Source: Oscillospiraceae bacterium
Lineage (GTDB): Bacteria > Bacillota > Clostridia > Oscillospirales > Acutalibacteraceae
Length of the DNA stretch: 45,745 nt
Direction of reading: 5' to 3'
Assembly (NCBI GenBank): GCA_902780565.1
Contig: CACZGD010000012.1
Span: 1 to 45,745, forward strand
Part shown: in pieces, positions 35,456-39,386 of the stretch
Numbering within the stretch: position 1 is the first letter of the stretch
Layout of the letters: each line of letters opens with the position of its first letter
Notes under the pieces: generated by a model
Databases searched by the model: none
The model's input: only the letters and a program-made list of their open reading frames with translations
What the model was told of the DNA's origin: nothing
Position numbers and translations under genes: made by a program

Positions 35456-35494
35456 GGAACGAAAATACTCCTTCGGAAAATAGGATAGAAACGC

Positions 35495-35528
35495 AAAAAA
35501 ACACAGCCTGCCGCCGGTCGGCGCAAGC
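35495..35528 (-). terminator. Leader terminator (attenuator) upstream of the CNNM gene
   Basis: GCTTGCGCC (35528-35520) pairs with GGCGGCAGGC (35515-35506), one bulge, loop GACC; then TGTG and seven T residues (35501-35495). It ends 40 bases before the CNNM ATG. The 3' arm can alternatively pair with the leader ORF end. Confidence 0.82.
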
Positions 35529-35549
35529 TATGCGGGATTTCAGGCTATG
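35502..35549 (-). promoter_or_regulatory. Competing antiterminator pairing
   Basis: On the minus strand CATAGCCTG (35549-35541, spanning the last codons and stop of the leader ORF) is complementary over 9 bp (one G-U) to CAGGCTGTG (35510-35502), which includes the terminator 3' arm. The two structures exclude each other. A translating ribosome at the leader stop would mask 35549-35541 and favour termination. GGCATTATG at the leader start (35602-35594) can also pair with CATAGCC with a bulge. Confidence 0.6.
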
Positions 35550-35596
35550 AAGTTCAGGGGATCAAACGCGGGACTGGGGTCCGGGTCGGTTTCCAT
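35540..35596 (-). CDS. 18-aa acidic/proline leader peptide, MgtL-like
   Basis: ATG 35596 to TGA 35542-35540 encodes METDPDPSPAFDPLNFIA. AAAGGA lies 8 bases upstream, an ideal ribosome site. A near-consensus promoter precedes it and an intrinsic terminator follows 12 bases after the stop. The first nine residues hold three Pro and three acidic residues in alternation, like enterobacterial MgtL (MEPDPTP...), whose acidic/Pro codons destabilise ribosomes at low Mg2+. Here the downstream gene is a CNNM-type transporter. A leader-peptide attenuator is the best reading; a free small peptide or sRNA is the alternative. Confidence 0.72.
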   Translation of the reverse strand: METDPDPSPAFDPLNFIA

Positions 35597-35625
35597 AATG
35601 CCATTCCTTTCACAGATTGCTTTAT

Positions 35626-35654
35626 ATCATATCATACGGCGTCGGCTTTGTCAA
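35626..35654 (-). promoter_or_regulatory. Promoter of the leader/CNNM transcript
   Basis: Exact TTGACA (35654-35649), 17-base spacer, TATGAT (35631-35626). The -35 lies inside the last codons of the MATE gene and the -10 just after its stop. Predicted start near 35619 gives a leader of about 23 bases before the small ORF. Confidence 0.88.
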
Positions 35655-38447: not shown

Positions 38448-39386
38448 ATGTTTTATCAGATCGGCAGCGAGAAGCGCGAGATCGCTTTCTCCGATTATGA
38501 CCCCGCCGTTTTCACCGCGGGCTATGTGACCGTGCCGGAGCTTCGGGACCTTGCGCCCGCGCTCGGCTTTGCCGTGGGCACCGTGGAGGCCTGCGGCACC
38601 GCGAACCGCTACTTCCGCTCCGGGGTGGAGGTCTATGACGACTACACCTTCACGGAGCTGCGCATCAGCCAGTTTTCGGAGGAGGAGAAGACCCCGCCGG
38701 ACTGCGTGGCGCTCTATTTCAAAAAGAACCTCTTCCTCGTCGTGGACGTGGAGGACCACGACGGCTCCACAAAGGCGAAGTTCCTGTCCGCCGTGAGCCG
38801 CTACGCCGCCTCCTCCGCCACGCCCGAAAAGGTGGTGTGCGCGTTTCTGGACGCGCTGCTGGCAGGGGACGTGAAATTTTTGGAGCGCACGGGGCTGGAG
38901 ATCTCGGAGCTGGAGACGGACGTGGTGAACGTCGTCGCCGACAAGGACTTTTCCATTGACATTCTGGAGATCAAAAAGGAGCTGCTGATCGTACACAACT
39001 ACTACGAGCAGCTCCTCGACATCACCGAAGCGCTGGAGGAGAACGACAACGATATCTTCCTGACCGACGACCTGCACTACGTCGCCAACGTCGCCGCCAA
39101 GATCCGCCGCCTGCGCGAGGACGCGGACTCGCTGTATAACTCCGCCGTCCACCTGCAGGACGCCTATCAGGCGTCGCTGGACCTGAAGCTGAACAACTCC
39201 ATGAAGTTCTTCACGGTGCTGACCACGATCTTCTTCCCGCTCACCATCATCGTGGGCTGGTACGGCATGAACTTTATCAATATGCCGGAGCTCCAATGGA
39301 AATACGGCTACGTCTACGTCATCCTCCTGTCCCTCGCCGTCAGCGGCCTGCTGACCCTTATCGCAAAAAAACGCAAGTGGTTCTGA
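38448..39386 (+). CDS. corA: CorA family Mg2+/Co2+ channel
   Basis: Start at ATG 38448 (MFYQIGSEKRE), AAAAGGAG upstream; 312 residues. A large cytoplasmic alpha/beta and helical funnel precedes two C-terminal membrane helices, with the signature GMN motif (IVGWYGMNF) after helix 1 and a basic C-terminus (KKRKWF). CorA forms pentameric, Mg2+-gated import channels. Its position 3 kb from the CNNM gene makes this a small Mg2+-related neighbourhood. Confidence 0.95.
   Translation: MFYQIGSEKREIAFSDYDPAVFTAGYVTVPELRDLAPALGFAVGTVEACGTANRYFRSGVEVYDDYTFTELRISQFSEEEKTPPDCVALYFKKNLFLVVDVEDHDGSTKAKFLSAVSRYAASSATPEKVVCAFLDALLAGDVKFLERTGLEISELETDVVNVVADKDFSIDILEIKKELLIVHNYYEQLLDITEALEENDNDIFLTDDLHYVANVAAKIRRLREDADSLYNSAVHLQDAYQASLDLKLNNSMKFFTVLTTIFFPLTIIVGWYGMNFINMPELQWKYGYVYVILLSLAVSGLLTLIAKKRKWF

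Follow-up and report, generated by a model that had tools for sequence, protein, structure and literature searches.

Why should the gene for a CNNM-type transporter in a member of the Clostridia be preceded by a short reading frame rich in acidic residues and proline, with a transcription terminator at its end? The locus was analysed in a stretch of 45,745 nucleotides, here called the window, which comprises positions 1-45,745 of the forward strand of contig CACZGD010000012.1 of Oscillospiraceae bacterium (GCA_902780565.1; GTDB lineage Bacteria; Bacillota; Clostridia; Oscillospirales; Acutalibacteraceae). A preliminary description of the sequence had proposed an MgtL-like acidic and proline-rich leader with an attenuator before the CNNM gene. 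That proposal was borne out by conservation in the genus, but the sign that it had given to the switch was not. We propose instead, with a probability of roughly two in three, that the element is a transcription attenuator gated by translation of the leader, which would hold a Mg2+ exporter off at low Mg2+.

The promoter, AAAGGA sequence, 18-codon reading frame and terminator hairpin with seven T residues that had been described were all located in the window (Table 1). The promoter matched the consensus at 11 of 12 positions, with a 17-nt spacer, and its -35 hexamer lay inside the 3' end of MatE, the gene upstream of the leader (stop codon at 35634-35632, minus strand). As a bare consensus it was not beyond chance, two such sites being found in 4 kb compared with a mean of 1.0 in shuffled sequence. 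The acidic and proline-rich stretch comprised residues 2-9 of the leader peptide, and the 5' arm of the terminator started 6 nt past the leader stop codon. The hairpin was present in the minimum-free-energy fold of the leader RNA; the stability of the whole leader RNA was not unusual (z = -0.71), and a simple terminator scan of the window did not list the hairpin at 35533-35502. From the end of the T7 tract to the ATG of the CNNM gene there were 39 nt, including the Shine-Dalgarno sequence of that gene (GAAGGAG, 35473-35467, minus strand), and no promoter-like site was found between the terminator and the gene in the window. The case for the window element was therefore made by its conservation, since neither the promoter nor the RNA stability stood out alone. 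A nearby CorA gene had also been remarked upon, and a gene with the Pfam CorA domain was indeed present at 38448-39386 on the plus strand, approximately 3 kb from the CNNM gene; its start lay 14 bases past the end of the preceding ORF.

Table 1. Coordinates of the features of the window locus and of the overlapping leaders found at other loci.
Feature	Position	Strand	Remarks
Sigma70-type promoter, TTGACA-17-TATGAT	35626..35654	-	-35 TTGACA 35654-35649, TATGAT 35631-35626
Leader Shine-Dalgarno sequence, AAAGGA	35605..35610	-	Sequence reading
Leader ORF, METDPDPSPAFDPLNFIA	35540..35596	-	ATG 35596, 18 codons, TGA 35542-35540; acidic leader conserved in the genus and in other Clostridia
Intrinsic terminator	35495..35533	-	Hairpin 35533-35502 and T7 35501-35495; fold, covariation
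Alternative 9-bp pairing	35502..35549	-	35549-35541 with 35510-35502; in the window, not conserved
CNNM/CorB-CBS-CorC_HlyC transporter gene, 441 aa	34130..35455	-	Pfam domains; likely Mg2+ exporter
Overlapping leaders	L214:315-392, L245:303-386, L253:306-392	Oriented with CNNM	Sequence reading

A search with the CNNM protein gave matches in 25 of the 26 genomes of the genus, and reading of the upstream regions revealed an acidic leader and terminator in 19 of the 26. A DNA search with the window leader gave matches in eight, including the window's own genome, one of which (L008) was not a leader. The leaders of the genus started with METDPDP.., MDADPDP.., MEPDPDGSP.., METDPDSGP.., MESDADSTGP.. 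or MESDDGSPVP.., and GTG-started leaders such as MDSTDGDETGNSP also occurred. Genomes without the leader were G003, G004, G005 and G008, with CNNM proteins 39-40% identical, and G007 (27-32%); also counted as lacking it were G024, whose contig ends there, and G021, which gave no CNNM match. One contig of G007 (C38), with no CNNM gene of the leader type, carried two adjacent distant CNNM genes, L037 and L038, and an ORF start there read MDDAIPRSLY. In G009, G012 and G022 the leader had a divergent tRNA-Val gene beside it, so the element goes with the CNNM gene and does not serve to terminate a gene upstream; because the leader is kept with CNNM and not with the upstream neighbour, the device appears to be tied to the gene.

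The terminator stem showed covariation. Using the pairs of the window fold and an alignment of 16 of the 19 genus terminators (G018, G020 and G025 were left out), 96.3% of the cells of the outer 10 pairs were paired and 19 cells carried two-sided changes, compared with 5.1 in shuffles. None of 500 shuffles reached the covariation score, and 10 of them reached the number of two-sided pairs. A pattern resembling MDxxDPDP gave four matches in three of 200 family genomes: the window, a CNNM protein start (L009), and L010 and L012, which by eye looked like chance matches.

Comparison of upstream regions, which had been suggested as a check for conserved acidic short ORFs, found them both in the genus and in other Clostridia. 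Among the best 80 of 529 confirmed CNNM candidates from a GTDB scan (the named set), the same plan recurred under the record names Oscillospiraceae, Lachnospiraceae, Emergencia and Anaerotignum, among others. Cultured relatives that carry the leader include Scatolibacter rhodanostii (L072) and Anaerotignum sp. MSJ-24 (L097). Leaders beyond the genus included MDDGDSNPENPP.., MDAGDSSPDPSR.., MDEGDSDSTN.. and MESDADSDSEAN.., and similar starts there were MDDGDS.. and MDAGDS... A mechanical criterion was applied that required a Shine-Dalgarno sequence, an ATG or GTG start, 9-50 codons, at least three acidic residues at positions 2-9 and a stop codon at most 12 nt ahead of a terminator. In 78 of the 80 named loci, including five apparent genus members (L039-L043), it detected a leader with terminator at 33 of 78 CNNM genes, compared with 1 of the 192 other genes that these loci contain (p = 1e-19, a value that treats related genomes as independent). 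Outside the genus (the 19 genus leaders being left out), a promoter matching at least 9 of 12 consensus positions lay within 75 nt upstream of 47 of 60 leaders, compared with 163 of 1200 base shuffles.

In total, 79 leaders were curated by eye, 19 from the genus, 43 from the named loci and 17 from class and family loci, some of the last having weak terminators or no more than two acidic residues early in the peptide. An acidic residue (D or E) occupied position 2 in 70 of the 75 distinct leaders, and many leaders carried glycine and serine rather than proline, being rich in D, G and S compared with the DPDP of the window. Three related loci (L147, L153 and L158) had identical or nearly identical leaders, MDDGPSCRQC(T/N)ALVICRLHGRLNL, with neither a T-tract terminator nor an overlap with CNNM; lacking the T-tract, they were dropped wherever one was required, which reduced the count from 79 to 76. 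Leaders before other genes were sought with two DNA patterns. An MDDGDS-like pattern gave two matches in 2 of 101 phylum genomes and an MD[DAE]GDS-like pattern 17 matches in 16 of 126 class genomes; none was credible by eye, the matches having no Shine-Dalgarno sequence, lying within or forming part of a longer ORF, or having no gene after them. The class search says little, because none of the leaders known from the class sample matches its pattern. Nothing relevant matched in Rfam at gathering or relaxed thresholds, and an M-box covariance model that gave control matches in B. subtilis and L. lactis gave none in the window's genome (97% complete). The preliminary description had named no earlier report of such a leader for clostridial CNNM genes; none was found in the open-access literature, and a conserved attenuator before CNNM genes seems to be undescribed there.

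The acidic stretch was also encountered as the start of the CNNM protein itself. With an acidic start defined as at least three D/E/P and at least two D/E among residues 2-7, and with start codons predicted by Shine-Dalgarno strength, it was present in 60 of 90 family loci, compared with 3 of 165 controls, two of these three coming from loci L037 and L038, which hold the distant CNNM genes of a single genome; among other genes of the named loci the figure was 5 of 192. Family CNNM proteins started, for example, with MDDPDPAGN.., MDDPGPAN.., MDPDPSGN.. or MSPEPDG... Across family loci L185-L275 (such as L216, L223 and L230) an Asp/Pro stretch very often opened the protein. Outside the class the acidic start was rare (3 of 27 CNNM genes of the phylum), and no acidic leader was found at the 29 CNNM genes read in the phylum sample (29 of the sample's 33 rows other than the window were read, and two of these came from a genome of the same class). 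Neither device was scored in 22 of 74, 43 of 65 and 23 of 90 CNNM genes of the named, class and family samples, respectively. For the class, 66 of 68 rows besides the window were read (G289 and G307 were out) and 65 counted; for the family, 91 of 94 were read (the window, G015 and the incomplete gene of G071 were out) and 90 counted.

A third arrangement was found at L214 (MDDPYPADFM..), L245 (MDDPYPAERM..) and L253 (MDDPYPADTS..), where no convincing terminator was present and the leader stop fell within the first CNNM codons, with an overlap of approximately 10 nt with the CNNM start. Because of this overlap, a finishing ribosome would reach the exporter start, and these loci are possibly a translational-coupling version of the switch. 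At L268 a similar sequence, MDDPYPAAQM, was the CNNM protein start. In the same way MDDGDSN was a leader with terminator at six loci (L050, L067, L069, L099, L106 and L113) and a protein start at L084.

Leader and acidic start were seldom found together. By the mechanical criterion they co-occurred in 1 of 47 genes with a leader, compared with acidic starts in 78 of 182 without one; after curation the figures were 0 of 62 and 79 of 167, the 62 including the three overlapping leaders without terminator. The leader of L186 was not curated and L126 was not counted as a leader, although L126 seems to carry a GTG-started leader plus an acidic protein start and is a likely exception to exclusivity. 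A tree of 138 proteins (64 with a leader, 34 with an acidic start and 40 with neither) requires a minimum of 23 changes in the leader state and of 16 in the acidic start. Independent pairs on the tree numbered 0 in the same direction and 3-6 in the opposite direction (median p = 0.125); exclusivity was thus not significant after correction for descent, because too few pairs differ. Predicted TTG starts of CNNM behind a strong Shine-Dalgarno sequence (L044-L275) were seen in 26 of 62 genes with a leader, 12 of 79 with an acidic start and 32 of 88 with neither, and are perhaps a further restraint on translation.

The sign of the switch depends in part on what the CNNM protein does. The window ORF had Pfam CNNM, CBS and CorC_HlyC domains, all above gathering scores, and its nearest solved relatives were CorB chains 7m1t and 7m1u. 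E125, P128 and K129 were invariant in a six-member CNNM alignment and aligned with the GE..PK of CorB; by our own matching of positions, they appear to correspond to the turn of TtCorB in which the mutations E118A, P121G and K122A are reported to reduce Mg2+ transport (PMC8242095). Mg2+ efflux is the activity most often reported for CNNM/CorB proteins (PMC12421838, PMC8242095); the second source also states that there was no consensus on mechanism and that influx has been reported. High Mg2+ is reported to induce Salmonella corC and mgpA (PMC12421838). The window protein is likely a Mg2+ exporter.

The position of the leader stop relative to the terminator provided the evidence on polarity. 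In the 79 curated leaders the stop lay 0-9 nt before the hairpin in 11, in the 5' arm in 30, in the loop in 11, in the 3' arm in 14 and beyond the hairpin in 13, some arms, including that of the window (true gap 6 nt), being over-extended by the algorithm. A stop no more than 9 nt before, inside or past the hairpin was thus found in 79 of 79 leaders, in 77 of 79 with a strict arm and in 75 of 76 when a T-tract was required. The other two frames from the same start fell short in 99 of 158 cases (106 of 158 strict); ORFs of fewer than nine codons were excluded, a limit that biases the stop-position count towards leaders of sufficient length. Bare RNA folded into the terminator with a mean pair probability above 0.5 in 68 of 76 leaders. 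A ribosome with the stop codon in its A site covered at least three of the six pairs by the T-tract, or the ORF ran past, in only 56 of 76; among the other 20, no T-tract-side pairs were covered in G018 and L125, and some stopped in the loop or 3' arm. In the window two of these six pairs were covered by the A-site count, and the outer three pairs were lost in a constrained fold. Leader ORFs at L045, L052, L056, L058, L092, L109, L198 and L209 ran through the whole terminator and past it, as described for pyrBI. In E. coli, one study reports, moving a stop codon to 5 bp before a terminator reduced termination from approximately 90% to less than 10%, ribosomes within approximately 27 nt of a terminator suffice to hinder termination, and terminators less than 100 bp into an ORF are usually spared ribosomal repression unless RNA polymerase pauses (PMC4824070). 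B. subtilis RNA polymerase is reported to outrun ribosomes (PMC9226507). Since the leader stop is close to or inside the terminator, a finishing ribosome should hinder termination; ribosome-RNA polymerase coupling over approximately 100 nt may not be a given in Firmicutes.

Ribosomes need Mg2+ to hold together. Early acidic residues are reported to abort translation, and Mg2+ to suppress the abortion (PMC9718836, PMC11282234). With ample Mg2+, the first ribosome would clear the acidic and proline-rich stretch, reach the stop codon and occupy the 5' arm of the terminator, so that RNA polymerase would continue into CNNM and the exporter would be made. With little Mg2+ the ribosome would drop off or lag at the stretch, the bare RNA would fold into the terminator and the exporter would be off. 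This sign is proposed for the attenuator because bare RNA folds the terminator and the leaders end where a ribosome interferes. In the protein-start form, failure at the stretch would necessarily mean less exporter, so that translation itself would carry the same sign; in the overlapping form it would most likely mean the same, and that form favours the same sign. If termination follows failure, the attenuator would share the sign of the other two forms. We infer that Mg2+ is the signal from the identity of the gene, the reports of CNNM/CorC efflux, the induction of corC and mgpA, and the reports on IRD sequences. Judged from these sequences, the exporter is in many Clostridia probably made only when ribosomes get through an acidic peptide. 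The broader idea has about even odds in our estimation: that ribosome fragility is the Mg2+ sensor of Clostridia for CNNM export, as an acidic and proline-rich entry test passed only with sufficient Mg2+, in three repeatedly swapped forms (ORF start, overlapping leader, and leader with terminator) that would be a class-wide inverted counterpart of MgtL.

The preliminary description had assigned the opposite sign, by which a ribosome reaching the stop at normal Mg2+ would let the terminator form and drop-off at low Mg2+ would release a 9-bp antiterminator and turn CNNM on. MgtL is reported to act with this sign on mgtA (PMC11282234), the 9-bp pairing does exist in the window, and complementarity between leader and terminator 3' arm showed a slight mean excess. 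That excess over shuffles was small (mean z = -0.44 for the 79 leaders, with no more than 5 of 100 shuffles as strong in only 7 of 79), and no conserved switch emerged from a search of the 79 leaders against their terminator 3' arms. The pairing itself occurred in none of the 18 other genus leaders; in the two closest of these the longest helix had five pairs (G014) or seven, elsewhere (G023), and some others, G001, G002, G010, G013 and G015 among them, had longer helices of 8-11 pairs that were rich in G-U, several of them involving the T-tract. When forced in the window, it gave -30.1 kcal/mol compared with -37.4 kcal/mol for the terminator fold, a penalty of 7.3 kcal/mol. Bare RNA folds into the terminator in 68 of 76 leaders, and the stops lie near or in the terminator, with 13 of 79 leaders extending past it. 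Induction of CNNM at low Mg2+ would, in addition, be the wrong sign, because CNNM/CorB proteins are mostly reported as exporters. This account is regarded as very improbable.

Other accounts keep part of the proposed attenuator and change its signal or its gene product. The sign may be right and the signal a general state of translation or energy (an EttA-like ABC-F protein, EF-P, ATP or aminoacyl-tRNA) in place of Mg2+. EttA is reported to relieve pausing and drop-off at early acidic residues, those of MgtL included (PMC11282234), and the common leaders rich in D, G and S are unlike the DPDP of the window; the device nevertheless sits on a likely Mg2+ exporter gene and before only 1 of 192 other genes, and we consider this account unlikely. 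Alternatively, the CNNM protein could export polyamines, as PaeA does, with the leader reading the total of ribosome-stabilising cations. PaeA was the best NCBIfam match of the window protein, at 230 bits, which is far below the cut-off of 500, whereas its best solved relatives are CorB structures and the invariant residues match the Mg2+-transport turn of TtCorB, which makes polyamine export quite improbable. Acidic protein starts might also reflect membrane topology, an outside N-terminus avoiding K and R, with the leaders incidental. Many acidic starts do lie immediately before the first membrane segment, but an acidic start is seldom seen in CNNM proteins from other classes of the phylum, which presumably have the same topology, and topology gives no account of a leader peptide that has a promoter and a terminator of its own; it is scarcely credible as the explanation.

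The Mg2+-gated attenuator that we favour resembles several known systems in part. Like MgtL of mgtA in E. coli and Salmonella, it has a short leader with an early acidic and proline-containing stretch (EPDP in MgtL) before a Mg2+ transport gene, and its signal, as reported for MgtL, would presumably be failure to finish the leader (PMC11282234). Drop-off on MgtL, however, is reported to turn an importer on through loss of Rho-dependent termination, whereas the clostridial leader precedes a likely exporter, has an intrinsic terminator with a covarying stem at or overlapping its end, and is predicted to turn the gene off by drop-off. The stop positions and the lack of a conserved antiterminator speak, by anatomy only, against failure turning the gene on. 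The leader was thus not filed as a member of the MgtL family, because its sign is opposite by anatomy and its gene is likely an exporter; it appears to be an MgtL-like presumed sensor with inverted sign.

The leaders also have the sequence character of an IRD, namely D/E, or D/E with P, in the first residues. The IRD start of E. coli CorC (YbeX) is similarly reported to abort translation, in a Mg2+ efflux protein with CBS/CorC domains that is expected to be on at high Mg2+ (PMC12421838, citing Chadani 2021); in CorC the stretch belongs to the protein itself, whereas in the CNNM leader it is split off with an attenuator. As in pyrBI (PyrL), where a ribosome close behind RNA polymerase is reported to block an intrinsic terminator inside the leader ORF (PMC4824070), the terminator was found at or inside the end of the leader ORF; pyrBI responds to UTP and is helped by RNA polymerase pausing, whereas here the variable would be ribosome processivity. 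The vmlR leader of B. subtilis is likewise a case of uORF-dependent transcription attenuation in a Firmicute, but is reported to use antibiotic stalling and an antiterminator/anti-antiterminator system (PMC9226507). Classical amino-acid attenuators are reported to have more than 20 bp between stop and terminator (PMC4824070); neither such a gap nor a conserved competing antiterminator was found here.

If the proposed attenuator operates as described, the ribosome would be a two-sided Mg2+ gauge, in that drop-off at acidic codons would activate an importer in enterobacteria and silence an exporter in Clostridia. Many CNNM genes would gain a testable control mechanism, and their leaders would form a natural series of peptides showing what destabilises the ribosomes of Clostridia. 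It would also mean that ribosome-coupled attenuation occurs in Firmicutes, although RNA polymerase is reported to outrun ribosomes in B. subtilis (PMC9226507).
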